From Gemmatimonadota bacterium (GTDB lineage: Bacteria; Gemmatimonadota; Gemmatimonadetes; Longimicrobiales; Gaopeijiaceae), in NCBI GenBank assembly GCA_007126575.1, contig SLBA01000011.1, forward strand, positions 1 to 48,806: a stretch of 48,806 bases of DNA, read 5' to 3'. Both the position numbers and the translations under genes were made by a program. The notes under the pieces were generated by a model, which was not told the origin of the DNA, did no database searches, and worked only from the letters and a program-made list of their open reading frames with translations. Below are positions 36,344 to 41,637 of the stretch, piece by piece (the first letter of the stretch is position 1; every line of letters starts with the position of its first letter).

Positions 36344-36798
36344 CGCTGGGTGGACCCGTTCGATGGATCGGCGGCGCCTCCCGAGGCGACCCGAACGCGG
36401 GTCTCGTGGATCCCTGCGGTGCCGTCGGGAAGGGTGATGTGCGCCCGCAGGATCCAGTCCCCGCCCATCGTGAACTCGAAGGACTGGATCCGGTAGCGAC
36501 CGTCTCCCTCGTCCCGAGCCACCTCGCGCACGGGTACCATCCCCGCGTGATCCATCGTCCCCTCGACCTCGACCTCGGCGCCGGTGACGGGATCTCCGGC
36601 GTCGTCGTGGATCTCGACGACCACGAGTGCCGGGCCGGTGATCGGGGGGGTGGGGGTGACCGCGAGCTCGACGGTCCCCGGAAGGGCCTCTCCGGTATCC
36701 CCTCCCCGGCAGGCGGAGATCAGAACCAGGAGGATGAGAAGCCCGGGACGGATCCGGCGGGCTTCGCGCGCCCGGCGAATCGAGGGTCCCGGGGTCAT
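36340..36798 (-). CDS. YtkA/FixH-like lipoprotein
   Basis: 152 aa. Lipobox LISAC near residue 30 predicts a membrane-anchored lipoprotein. The rest is one beta-sandwich like YtkA/FixH: VVVEIHDDAGDPVTGAEVEVEGTMDHAGM, then YRIQSFEFTMGGDWILRAHITLPDG. The His/Met pattern (MDHAGM) could bind copper, consistent with the SCO gene before it. Start ATG 36798 overlaps the SCO stop (ATGA), and its stop overlaps the polyferredoxin start (GTGA). Confidence 0.75.
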   Translation of the reverse strand: MTPGPSIRRAREARRIRPGLLILLVLISACRGGDTGEALPGTVELAVTPTPPITGPALVVVEIHDDAGDPVTGAEVEVEGTMDHAGMVPVREVARDEGDGRYRIQSFEFTMGGDWILRAHITLPDGTAGIHETRVRVASGGAADPSNGSTQR

Positions 36799-37493
36799 CG
36801 CAGGACCCGGCGAAGGTCCCGGGCCATGGATTCCGAACCCTGGAAGGGAGCGAGGAGGAGGACGACGCGCCCGGCCCGATCGATCACGAAGGAGCGGGCG
36901 GAATGGTCCACCCCGTAGGCCCCCGGGGCCCCGGGGGGGATCGCGGCCTGAACCTCGGGAGAGAGCGAGGGGTCGCCATGGTCCATGTGCGCGTGGGGGT
37001 CCTCGTCGCCAGCCCGAGTCGGTGCCCGGGCCACATGAACGCCCCAGTCGCGCGCGGTCTCGAGGACCTCCTCTTCCGTACCCCGGAGGGTGACGATCGA
37101 GGGGTGGAAGTTGGCCATCCACTCCTCGAGACGTTCCGGGGTGTCCCGCTCGGGATCGACGGTGACGAAGACGACCCGCAGGCGATCGGCCTCTCGCGCC
37201 GAGAAGTCGTCGAGCACCCGGGTCAGGCTCAGGAGCGTCGAGGGGCAGACGTCGGGACAGTTCGAGAAGCCGAAGAAGACCACGGTGGTACGCCCCCGGA
37301 AGGAGGCGAGGTTCACCGGTTCGCCGTCCAGCCCGGGCAGCTCGAGTGCGGGCGCCGGATAGGGGGACGGGGGCGCCGAGGCGCCGTCCCATTCCATCTC
37401 GGACATCGGGGGTGGGGTGAGCCAGACGATCGCCGCCACGACGGCGAGACCGACGAGGGCGCTGGTGGTGACCTGCAGAATGCGACGGCGCAT
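36795..37493 (-). CDS. SCO1/SenC-family copper chaperone
   Basis: 232 aa. One N-terminal membrane helix, then a thioredoxin fold with the copper motif C79-P-D-V-C83-P and the third ligand H197 (GVDHSARSFVID). The family delivers copper to, or reduces, the CuA site of cytochrome c oxidase. An extra His-rich loop (DPHAHMDHGD, ~165-174) may bind additional copper. ATG 37493; the frame is open to 37559 but the earlier residues are non-homologous. First gene of a four-gene minus-strand operon divergent from troA. Confidence 0.92.
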   Translation of the reverse strand: MRRRILQVTTSALVGLAVVAAIVWLTPPPMSEMEWDGASAPPSPYPAPALELPGLDGEPVNLASFRGRTTVVFFGFSNCPDVCPSTLLSLTRVLDDFSAREADRLRVVFVTVDPERDTPERLEEWMANFHPSIVTLRGTEEEVLETARDWGVHVARAPTRAGDEDPHAHMDHGDPSLSPEVQAAIPPGAPGAYGVDHSARSFVIDRAGRVVLLLAPFQGSESMARDLRRVLR

Positions 37494-37541: not shown

Positions 37542-37576
37542 GAACCCTTGACGGTTCAAGGTAATGAAAGAAAATT
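37542..37576 (+). promoter_or_regulatory. Promoter of the metal-transport operon
   Basis: TTGACG (37548-37553) with, 17 bp on, AAAATT (37571-37576). The -35 sits in nested dyads GAACC...GGTTC (37542-37557) and CTTGA-CGGT-TCAAG (37547-37560), so a second regulator is possible. The -10 runs into the first operator box. Confidence 0.4.
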
Positions 37577-37612
37577 TAGTCTGAGCTAAATCATGATTTA
37601 GCTTGGCCTAAA
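37575..37612. promoter_or_regulatory. Twin DtxR/MntR-type operator
   Basis: Two boxes of the form TTTAG-N6-CTAAA: TTTAGTCTGAGCTAAA (37575-37590) and TTTAGCTTGGCCTAAA (37597-37612). They are separated by TCATGA, centre-to-centre 22 bp, about two helical turns. The whole 38 bp is symmetric about 37593.5, with GCTAAATCATGATTTAGC as a perfect 18-bp dyad at its centre. It overlaps the proposed -10 of the troA promoter. This is the kind of site bound by DtxR/MntR/TroR metal-sensing repressors. Confidence 0.7.
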
Positions 37613-37638: not shown

Positions 37639-38592
37639 ATGCACCAGCGCATTCGATCGAGACCATGTCTGGGGATCGCCCTCGCCCTTGCCCTTGCCCT
37701 GTTTGTCCTCAACGCCTGCGGGGGAGACGCTCGGTCCGCGGAGGAGGGGATTCGGGTCGTCACCACCATCGGGATGATCACCGACGTGGTCGAGCGGGTC
37801 GGAGGGGATCGGGTGTCGATCCAGGGGCTGATGGGCCCCGGGGTGGATCCTCACCTCTACAAGGCGTCGGCGGGAGACGTGCGGCGACTCGCCGAGGCGG
37901 AGCTGATCTTCTACAACGGGCTGCACCTGGAGGCCGCGATGGGCGAGGTGCTCGCCGAGATGGACGGGCGCACCCGCACGAGGGCCGTCACCGATGCCCT
38001 CGACCGCGAGCGGCTGCTGACCCCGCCCGAGTTCGAGGGGGCCTACGACCCGCACGTCTGGTCCGATGTCTCGATGTGGATCTCGGCGGTCGAGGTGGTG
38101 CGCGAGACGCTGACCGAGGTGGATCCGGAGGGCGCCGAGGCGTTCGAGCGTCGGGCGGCCGAATACATCGCGGAGCTCGAGGAGCTCGACGAGTGGGTAC
38201 GATCCGAGATCGCGCGGGTGCCGGATTCCCTGCGGGTCCTGGTCACGGCGCATGACGCCTTCAACTACTTCGGGCGGGCGTACGGCTTCGAGGTCCGGGG
38301 GCTCCAGGGACTCTCGACGGCCACCGAGGCCGGCACGGGTGACGTGCAGCGCCTGGCGGACTTCATCGCCCGGCGGGAGATCCCCGCCCTCTTCATCGAG
38401 ACCTCGATCCCCCCCCGCAACATCGAGGCGGTGCAGGCCGCCGTGCGCTCCCGGGGATTCGACGTCGAGATCGGGGGGAGCCTCTTCTCGGATGCGATGG
38501 GCGATCCCGGAACTCCCGAGGGGACCTATCTCGGGATGATTCGATCCAACGTCCGGACGATCGTCGAGGCGTTGACGGGGGAAGACGGGTGA
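37639..38592 (+). CDS. troA: TroA-like Mn/Zn/Fe-binding lipoprotein of ABC transporter
   Basis: 317 aa. Lipobox LNAC (C27) anchors it. Cluster A-I metal ligands are visible: H72 (DPHLYK), H139 (DPHVW), H205 (TAHDAFNYF) and D285 (LFSDAMG), the three-His plus Asp set of TroA/ZnuA. It lacks the His-rich loop of ZnuA, which favours a Mn/Fe role over strict Zn. It delivers the ion to the permease encoded downstream. First gene of the plus-strand operon; the start lies 26 bp after the twin operator. The stop overlaps the ATPase start. Confidence 0.9.
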
Positions 38593-39392
38593 TGGCCGGG
38601 CCGGAGGCCGCCGCGTCCGTTCCCGGCGGAGGGCCGGCGATCGAGGTCAACGACCTGACCGTCGCCTACCGGGAGCAGCCGGTACTCTGGGACATCGACC
38701 TCGAGGTCCGGCCGGGCGCGCTCACCGCGATCGTCGGACCGAACGGGGCGGGGAAGACCACCCTCATCCAGTCGATCCTGGGGCTGGTGCGCCCCGCCGC
38801 CGGCCGGATCCGGATCCTCGACCGGCCGATCCGGGACGCTCGGGGCGAGGTCGCGTACGTGCCCCAGCGGGGGACCGTGGACTGGGACTTTCCCACCTCG
38901 GTGCTCGACGTGGTGCTCATGGGGACGTATCGCGAGGTCGGGTGGTTCCGTCGCCCGGGGCGAGCCGAGCGGATCCGCGCGGTCGCGGCACTCGAGAAGG
39001 TGGGGATGGAGGCCTACCAGGACCGGCAGATCCGACAGCTCTCGGGCGGGCAGCAGCAGCGGGTCTTCCTGGCCCGTGCGCTGGTGCAGGAGGCCCGGAT
39101 CTACCTGATGGACGAGCCCTTCCAGGGCGTCGATGCGCGCACCGAGACCGCGATCGTCGAGGTGCTGCGTGAGCTGCGCGACCGGGGGGACACGGTCGTG
39201 GCGGTGCATCACGCGCTTCAGACCGTGCCCGAGTATTTCGACGACGTGGTGATCCTCAACGTGCGGCGGATCGCGTCGGGACCGGTGAGCGAGGTCTTCA
39301 CCGAAGAGAACCTCCGGGTCGCCTACGGGGGTCGCGTGCCCTTCCTGCACGCGGTCTCGGATGCACCGGTGGCCGACCTGCCGGAGAGCTGA
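38592..39392 (+). CDS. troB: Metal ABC transporter ATPase (TroB/MntB type)
   Basis: About 266 aa. Walker [10 protein letters not shown]-loop [12 protein letters not shown], signature LSGGQQQR, Walker [13 protein letters not shown] and H-loop VHH are all present. The PQR-x3-WDFP Q-loop is typical of Mn/Zn/Fe importers. ATG 38592 is preferred over the GTG one codon upstream because GGAAG lies seven nt before it; both overlap the troA stop. Works on the cytoplasmic face with the two permeases. Confidence 0.92.
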
Positions 39393-39394
39393 CG

Positions 39395-40528
39395 GTGCTC
39401 GAGGCGCTCCAGGTCTTCCTCTTCGACTACACCTTCCGCACCGTGGCGCTGGGAGCTGCGGCGCTGGGGGCGGTGGCGGGCGCCCTGGGGTGCTTCGCCG
39501 TCCTCCGGCGCCAGAGCCTGCTCGGCGATGCGATCGCCCACGCGGCGCTCCCGGGGATCGGGCTCGCCTTCCTCCTGACGGGAAGCCGGGCGACCCCGGT
39601 GCTCGTGCTCGGCGCCGCCCTGGCCGGCTGGATCGGCACATTGGCCGTCATGGGGATCGTTCGGGGGGCCCGGCTCCCCGAAGACACGGCGCTCGGGATC
39701 GTGCTCTCGGTCTTCTTCGGCTTCGGTCTCGTGATCCTGACCTTCGTGCAGCGTCTTCCCCTGGCCTCGCAGGCCGGGCTCGAGACCTTCCTGTGGGGGC
39801 AGGCCGCCACCCTCATGGCGGCCGATGTCCAGATGATCATCATCGTAGGGGCCGGGGCTCTGGCGCTCCTGGCTCTCTTCTGGAAGGAGTTCAAGGTCCT
39901 CTCCTTCGACGGGGCCTTCGCGGCGAGTCTGGGGATGCCGGTTCGGCGCGTGGAGTTTCTCCTGACCTCGCTTCTGGTCGTCGCGATCGTGCTCGGCCTG
40001 CAGACCGTCGGGGTCGTGCTCATGAGCGCCCTCGTGGTGGCGCCCGCCGCCGCGGCCCGCCAGTGGGTCGACTCACTCGGGCTGATGGTTCTGCTGGCGG
40101 CCGCGCTCGGAGCGCTCGCGGGAGTGGTCGGGGTCGGGTTCAGCAGCGCGGGATCGGGGATTCCCACGGGCCCCGTGATCGTCCTGGTGGCGAGCGCGAT
40201 CGTCGGGATCTCGCTGCTCGCGGCCCCCGGCAGGGGACTGCTGGCGGAGCTGGTCCGACAGCGCCGGGTCGGGCGGCGGATCCGCGCCGACGCGGTGCTC
40301 GCCGACCTCTACGCCCTGGCCATGCAGCACGAGGATCGGCGCTACGGGCATCCGGTGGCGACGCTGCGCACCATGCGCCACGGCGAGGTCGGAATCGAGC
40401 GCAGCCTCGAGACGCTGGCCGAGCAGGGGTGGGCCCGCGAGCTGAAGCCCGGGTCCTGGGGGCTCACACCCGAGGGAGAGAAACGCGCCCGCACGCGCTT
40501 CCTGGACCAAGACGCGGAGCACCCATGA
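39395..40528 (+). CDS. troC: Metal ABC permease with C-terminal winged-helix tail
   Basis: 377 aa. Residues ~1-285 are the ABC-3 permease (GCFAVLRRQSLLGDAIAHAALPGI, FKVLSFD, LVVAPAAAARQW). The last ~90 residues are soluble and look like a DtxR/MntR-type winged helix (AVLADLYALAMQHEDRR...ERSLETLAEQGWAREL...LTPEGEKRAR). Family permeases without this tail are about 280 aa. GTG start 3 bp after troB; stop overlaps the next gene by four bases. The tail may sense metal or gate transport; this is inference. Confidence 0.88.
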   Translation: MLEALQVFLFDYTFRTVALGAAALGAVAGALGCFAVLRRQSLLGDAIAHAALPGIGLAFLLTGSRATPVLVLGAALAGWIGTLAVMGIVRGARLPEDTALGIVLSVFFGFGLVILTFVQRLPLASQAGLETFLWGQAATLMAADVQMIIIVGAGALALLALFWKEFKVLSFDGAFAASLGMPVRRVEFLLTSLLVVAIVLGLQTVGVVLMSALVVAPAAAARQWVDSLGLMVLLAAALGALAGVVGVGFSSAGSGIPTGPVIVLVASAIVGISLLAAPGRGLLAELVRQRRVGRRIRADAVLADLYALAMQHEDRRYGHPVATLRTMRHGEVGIERSLETLAEQGWARELKPGSWGLTPEGEKRARTRFLDQDAEHP

Positions 40529-41637
40529 GCGGCCTCGATTTCGAGATCCAGCTTCTGGCGGTCGTGGTCTCGGTGGCCTGTGCCCTCCCGGGGGTCTTCC
40601 TGGTCCTCAGGCGGATGGCCCTGCTCTCGGACGCGATCTCGCATTCGATCCTTCTCGGGATCGTCCTGGCCTTCTTCTGGGTCCAGGACCTGAATTCACC
40701 CATCCTGATACTGGCCGCGGCCGCCACGGGGCTCCTGATGGTGGCCATGGTCGAGGCGCTTCACGCCACCCGCAGGGTGAAGGAGGACGCCGCGATCGCC
40801 CTCGTCTTTCCCGCGCTCTTCTCCCTCGCCGTGCTCCTGATCTCGCGCTATGCGGGCAACGTCCATCTCGATGTCGACGCGGTCCTCCTGGGAGAGATCG
40901 CCTTCGCCCCCTTCCGTCGCCTCGAAGTCGCCGGCCACGACCTCGGCCCTCGGTCGCTCTGGACGATGGGGGGGATCCTGGCGCTCAACCTCCTCTTCAT
41001 GCTGGCCTTCTACAAGGAGCTCAAGGTGTCGACCTTCGACGCCGGACTCGCCGCCGCGATGGGCTTCTCTCCGGTGCTCATCCAGTACGCCTTCATGGGG
41101 CTGGTGTCGGTCACGGCGGTCGGGGCCTTCGACGCGGTCGGGTCGATCCTGGTCGTGGCCCTGATGATCGCCCCTCCCGCGTCGGCTCGGCTGCTCACCG
41201 ATCGGCTACCCCTCATGATCGGCCTGAGCGCCCTGCTCGCCGCGATATCGGCGATCTCCGGATTCTGGATCGCGAGGGGGCTCGATGCCTCGATCGCGGG
41301 CTCGATGGCCACGGCCGCCGGACTCGTGTTCCTTCTTTCGATGCTCCTGGCTCCCGACCGGGGGGTGGTCGCGAGCCTCCTGCGCCGGCGGCGCCAGAAG
41401 GTCTCGTTTGCCCGTCTGATGCTCACGATCCACCTGCTGAACCACGAGAACAGCCCCGCGGCCCCCGAAGAGAACCGCCTGGGCCATCTGTCGGTGCACC
41501 TGCGGTGGAGCCCGGAGTTCGCTCGTCAGGTCGCCGATCGAGCGGAGCGGGATGGGCTTCTGGACCGCGGAGAGGGCGATCGGTTGCACCTCACCCCCCT
41601 GGGCCGCGAAGCCGCCCGGCATTTCATGGCGCGCTGA
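40525..41637 (+). CDS. troD: Second metal ABC permease with winged-helix tail
   Basis: 370 aa. Permease core with GVFLVLRRMALLSDAISHSILLG and MIAPPASARLLTDRL. After ~residue 290 a soluble segment reads FARLMLTIHLLNHENS...GHLSVHLRWSPEFARQVADRAERDGLL...HLTPLGREAARHF, a second winged-helix-like tail, related in pattern to that of the upstream permease. Two different permeases with one ATPase and one binding protein is the troABCD/mntABCD arrangement; a heterodimeric channel is expected. ATG start overlaps the previous stop. Confidence 0.88.
   Translation: MSGLDFEIQLLAVVVSVACALPGVFLVLRRMALLSDAISHSILLGIVLAFFWVQDLNSPILILAAAATGLLMVAMVEALHATRRVKEDAAIALVFPALFSLAVLLISRYAGNVHLDVDAVLLGEIAFAPFRRLEVAGHDLGPRSLWTMGGILALNLLFMLAFYKELKVSTFDAGLAAAMGFSPVLIQYAFMGLVSVTAVGAFDAVGSILVVALMIAPPASARLLTDRLPLMIGLSALLAAISAISGFWIARGLDASIAGSMATAAGLVFLLSMLLAPDRGVVASLLRRRRQKVSFARLMLTIHLLNHENSPAAPEENRLGHLSVHLRWSPEFARQVADRAERDGLLDRGEGDRLHLTPLGREAARHFMAR

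Follow-up and report, generated by a model that had tools for sequence, protein, structure and literature searches.

A tandem operator of predicted DtxR/MntR type upstream of a troA metal-import operon in Gemmatimonadota

Upstream of troA in a Gemmatimonadota genome, a 38-bp element carries two matching palindromic boxes. Judged from sequence comparison, the element is very likely the tandem operator of an Mn/Fe-responsive DtxR/MntR-type repressor, encoded on another contig (C203), that would block the troA promoter. The type of operator as such, a tandem site for a DtxR-family regulator activated by Mn or Fe, is already known, but its conservation is unusually high here. New are the conserved register of the two boxes, their link to dtxR genes, and a second target in the same genome. 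The window referred to below is the whole stretch of DNA that was analyzed (48,806 nucleotides), and its relevant features are summarized in Table 1.

The twin boxes and the troA promoter

The two exact 16-bp boxes with centers 22 bp apart (two helical turns), proposed in a first-pass annotation of this DNA, were both confirmed, including their coordinates. The perfect dyad that it placed between them is also present but extends over 20 bp (AGCTAAATCATGATTTAGCT) and not 18 bp, and the 38-bp element as a whole is self-complementary at 32 of 38 positions. The exact pattern TTTAG-N6-CTAAA occurs at two sites in the whole 3.68-Mb genome (G000), both within the 38-bp element, and the reversed-pattern control gave 0 matches across the same 3.68 Mb. 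From base composition, approximately 0.12 single boxes per genome would be expected, and approximately 3e-8 for the twin. In a search of 395 Gemmatimonadota genomes, the exact twin turned up in 15 (reversed control 0). The consensus of 47 boxes is TTTAGGCNNGCCTAAA, in which the five outer letters were imposed by the search pattern, while the inner preference for GGC/GCC was not. Relatives have other hexamers between the two boxes (TAATGA, TGACAC, ATTAAA, and others), so that the inner dyad is not conserved. This perfect dyad was also considered as the binding site itself and was dropped because the intervening bases vary and promoters with one box retain the TTTAG...CTAAA form of the outer letters. 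Rfam and terminator scans of the region returned no known RNA family and no terminator, and thus no sign of a riboswitch. Among the DtxR/MntR papers covered by a text search, none gave a TTTAGGC MntR box.

Table 1. Features of the window around the 38-bp element.
Feature	Position	Strand	Remark
SCO1/SenC gene	36795..37493	-	likely start at 37493; divergent from troA, 145-bp intergenic region common to both
Probable -35 of the troA promoter, TTGACG	37548..37553	+	TTGAC also upstream of box 1 in other loci
Box 1, TTTAGTCTGAGCTAAA	37575..37590	.	predicted DtxR-dimer site; overlaps the -10/start region
Box 2, TTTAGCTTGGCCTAAA	37597..37612	.	predicted second DtxR-dimer site; center 22 bp from box 1
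troA, metal-binding lipoprotein of an ABC importer (PF01297)	37639..38592	+	
ABC ATPase	38589..39392	+	nearest models are Mn/Fe importer ATPases
ABC-3 permease 1	39395..40528	+	C-terminal winged-helix tail of ~100 aa
ABC-3 permease 2	40474..41637	+	C-terminal winged-helix tail of ~100 aa; coordinates are those of the reading frame, real start codon probably slightly downstream

The sole sigma-70-like promoter found in the region, TTGACG...GAAAAT at 37548-37575, makes box 1 coincide with the -10/start, so that the palindrome overlaps the promoter of a metal-uptake gene. The arrangement is common: in 14 of 24 box-bearing loci, TTGAC precedes box 1 by 21-28 bp, compared with 1.7% of random 30-mers, and a bound repressor would thus cover the -10/start. 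The gene next to the boxes is indeed a TroA orthologue, as the first reading had it, with Treponema pallidum TroA as its best solved relative (E=1e-90). The nearest named relatives of the operon are found in Gemmatimonadota MAGs. An assignment of the ligands of the substrate-binding protein to the Mn type (H,H,E,D) was withdrawn, as the TroA alignment has His at the third position; read from this alignment, the TroA-like ligands do not settle the choice between Mn and Zn. The divergent arrangement of SCO1/SenC and troA is kept in G001, G002, and G210, and apparently also in G022. Since relatives keep it, the operator may act in both directions and serve SCO1/SenC as well.

The regulator

A genome devoid of DtxR/MntR homologues would have spoken against an operator of this kind. 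The only canonical DtxR of the genome studied here was found on contig C203 (L003), outside the window as had been anticipated, where the gene adjoins a uridine-kinase-like gene; all other PF01325 matches are weak and under the family cut-off. The C203 protein consists of winged-helix, dimerization, and FeoA domains. Its best solved matches are 5zr4 (which we take to be mycobacterial MntR), 8pvt (presumably DR2539), SloR, and ScaR. Assuming the usual residue letters of DtxR and MntR, it has Asp at the DtxR M10 position, Glu at C102, and Lys at the MntR Glu11 position, and the metal site is predicted to be MntR-like.

As the regulator gene lies on another contig, the linkage within this genome is indirect, and in the Gemmatimonadota lineage of the window the dtxR gene no longer adjoins the tro operon. 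In other phyla, DtxR homologues with 32-55% identity to the C203 protein are encoded near the orthologous troA operon, mostly immediately upstream. At 23 of 31 such loci a box with no more than one mismatch stands just before the dtxR gene (reversed control 0). Nothing else in the sequences ties the box to the regulator as strongly. The own dtxR gene on C203 has no near-consensus box in front according to a one-mismatch genome search, and the autoregulation suggested for other phyla would therefore be absent here.

The same evidence bears on the question of whether the operon is instead repressed by a Fur-family protein (Fur, Zur, or Mur) that recognizes the boxes. The genome does encode three members of this family, and control by Zur or Mur is frequent among Zn/Mn ABC importers. 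However, in many phyla the box precedes dtxR genes that lie next to the orthologous operon. Moreover, its TTTAGG half-sites are like those of the DtxR/IdeR type (TTAGG...CCTAA) and unlike those of the Fur and Zur types (GATAAT or GTTATA), which makes control by a Fur-family protein highly improbable. Together with the lone canonical DtxR and the other metal-uptake targets described below, the boxes before dtxR genes support the DtxR/MntR-type operator that the first-pass annotation had suggested.

The annotation had also raised the possibility that regulation acts through the winged-helix tails of the permeases. In this reading, the tails of both permeases would themselves bind the boxes and control the operon while anchored in the membrane. 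In profile comparison, the tails do match the DtxR winged helix (92.6 and 96.5% probability), and certain other phyla have tails that reach the DtxR metal-binding region. In the lineage of the window, however, the tails end after the winged helix and have neither a dimerization nor a metal site, and the same boxes precede unrelated transporter genes and dtxR itself. Direct binding by the tails is hence not favored, is not needed to explain the operator, and appears extremely unlikely; a regulatory role within the transporter is more likely for them than that of an operator-binding factor. Continuation of the permease tail into the DtxR dimerization/metal region was observed at six loci (L153, L184, L185, L192, L194, and L196), and relatives with an extended tail include some Verrucomicrobia and deltaproteobacterial ones.

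Spacing of the boxes

Of the 11 troA orthologues from the same family whose upstream DNA is complete, 10 have two boxes exactly 22 bp apart (each box with two mismatches at most). Across these orthologues, the cores differ in sequence and the start codon lies at varying distances, while the spacing stays constant. The troA orthologues of the more distant family f3 have degenerate boxes only. When 32 anchor boxes were searched for a partner with up to two mismatches, the spacing was 22 bp in 13 cases, 23 bp in 5, 19 bp in 2, and 24 and 25 bp in one case each, with a single partner in the range of 26-60 bp. Outside Gemmatimonadota a second site is rarer, and when found, the most frequent spacing is again 22 bp.

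At many homologous promoters there is just one box, which would fit a DtxR that binds each box independently, with the 22-bp register reflecting promoter geometry, i.e., one site at the -10/start and one just downstream, and not dimer contacts. This is a variant of the tandem-operator explanation and compatible with it. However, the exact 22 bp are kept while cores and start-codon distances vary, and cooperative SloR sites are reported with the same period, so that we regard independent binding as rather unlikely. The conserved spacing and the published SloR geometry instead support the box pair as a putative cooperative dimer-dimer site.

Further targets

The first-pass annotation had called for a genome scan for further metal genes with the box. 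A one-mismatch search yielded a second twin, GTTAGGCAGGACTAAA and ATTAGGATTGCCTGAA, 22 bp apart on contig C8 (5224/5246). This twin is degenerate and lies 63 bp upstream of a gene for a 759-aa TonB-dependent receptor (L202:2885-5161), and a divergent metallophosphoesterase-like gene is located on its other side. Receptor orthologues in G003 and G017 (53-54% identity) have twin boxes too. By these sequence features, the C8 receptor is very probably under the same repressor and is a candidate outer-membrane importer for Mn or Fe.

A random scatter of the box with no link to metal genes was not what the family revealed. Of its 27 exact-box loci, 24 were assigned to troA/SCO1, TonB receptors, di-haem oxidoreductases (PF06537), or DtxR-FeoA/FeoB operons, some of them from coordinates or synteny alone; the di-haem oxidoreductases are counted here as iron-uptake proteins. 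In relatives, the site is thus linked to dtxR genes and a metal regulon. For the boxes in G005, G008, and G016, a connection to metals is not clear. At L115 and L116, twin boxes are flanked by genes for a putative outer-membrane protein and a squalene-hopene cyclase, with no evident metal link. A second type of box-bearing TonB receptor, whose plug region contains a CGVC motif, was found at L041, L113, and L117.

A further protein, encoded in relatives (L032:1538-2578), has a hydrophobic helix at its N terminus, a DtxR body whose winged helix is degenerate, and a pair of FeoA domains. Proteins of this type also occur at L024, L026, L029, L033, L214, L215, and L217; where the flank was read, FeoB comes next and a box stands in front. 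The domains suggest a DtxR-FeoA-FeoA protein that is tethered to the membrane and partners FeoB, and a non-tethered form with twin FeoA domains is known as PgMntR (PMC4805248).

Proposed mechanism and implications

With plentiful Mn2+ (possibly also Fe2+), metal-loaded repressor dimers would occupy the two TTTAGGC-like palindromes on one face of the DNA, probably in mutual contact. The bound repressor would block the sigma-70-type promoter, whose -10 and start fall on box 1, and uptake by the tro importer would be shut off. When metal becomes scarce, the repressor would leave the DNA and uptake would resume. The C203 repressor would also act on the C8 TonB-dependent receptor through the weaker second twin, so that import across both membranes would be coordinated.

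More tentatively, and with somewhat less than even confidence, the 22-bp register for two dimers may be an old and widely kept trait of DtxR repressors with a FeoA domain, with a range that extends from SloR of Streptococcus to the Gemmatimonadota and Chloroflexota. In Gemmatimonadota it might define an Mn/Fe uptake regulon for both membranes that includes a TonB-dependent receptor for an Mn or Fe chelate. For the DtxR/MntR subfamily of these largely uncultured phyla, the analysis supplies a well-supported operator sequence, the above consensus, often doubled at 22 bp, with which metal regulons can be read from genomes. Furthermore, the box draws attention to a receptor in the outer membrane that may import Mn or Fe, and promoters with one and two sites form a natural series in which to examine how spacing tunes the metal response.

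Comparison with known systems

The troABCDR operons of Treponema denticola and T. pallidum encode a related importer and, with TroR, a regulator of the same class. However, they have one 18-bp operator and troR within the operon (PMC2628430), whereas here the operator is double and the regulator gene unlinked. At mneP of Bacillus subtilis, several MntR dimers bind cooperatively to adjacent palindromes, there as 18-bp sites with 1-bp gaps (19-bp period), and activate efflux (PMC11275975). Neither this 19-bp period nor the Tyr22 interface was found in the 38-bp element and the C203 DtxR. Because Tyr22 is not conserved and the MntR sites are 19 bp apart, the case for cooperativity rests on the analogy with SloR.

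With regards to the second target, Stenotrophomonas maltophilia likewise has an MntR box before a TonB-dependent receptor (PMC13217887). Several box-bearing receptors in relatives of our genome also have a CXXC motif in the plug region (CGVC versus CQNC), although the S. maltophilia box differs and the C8 receptor is without CXXC. DR2539 of Deinococcus radiodurans is a dual Mn/Fe regulator with Lys at MntR Glu11, a retained His98, and an SH3 domain (PMC3327659). The C203 DtxR shares the Lys, the His98, and the SH3/FeoA domain. DR2539 controls an Mn importer in response to Mn and Fe, but the target studied there is mntH (PMC3327659). The tro operons of Deinococcus have GTTAGG-N4-CCTAAC-like sites.

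At sloABC of Streptococcus mutans, SloR binds cooperatively to 18-bp sites with 4-bp gaps, i.e., with a period of 22 bp (PMC12096823), and 18-bp sites with 4-bp gaps are likewise found here. Contacts via Phe187 of the FeoA domain are said to support the cooperativity, for which the authors cite data not shown (PMC12096823). A Phe is aligned with this interdimer residue in the C203 DtxR, although its conservation may be structural. SloR has three sites with AATTAA half-sites, while the element described here has two with TTTAGG half-sites and belongs to another phylum. Still, both systems comprise a DtxR-family Mn repressor (predicted here) with a FeoA domain and 6-6-6 palindromes that overlap the promoter before a metal ABC operon.
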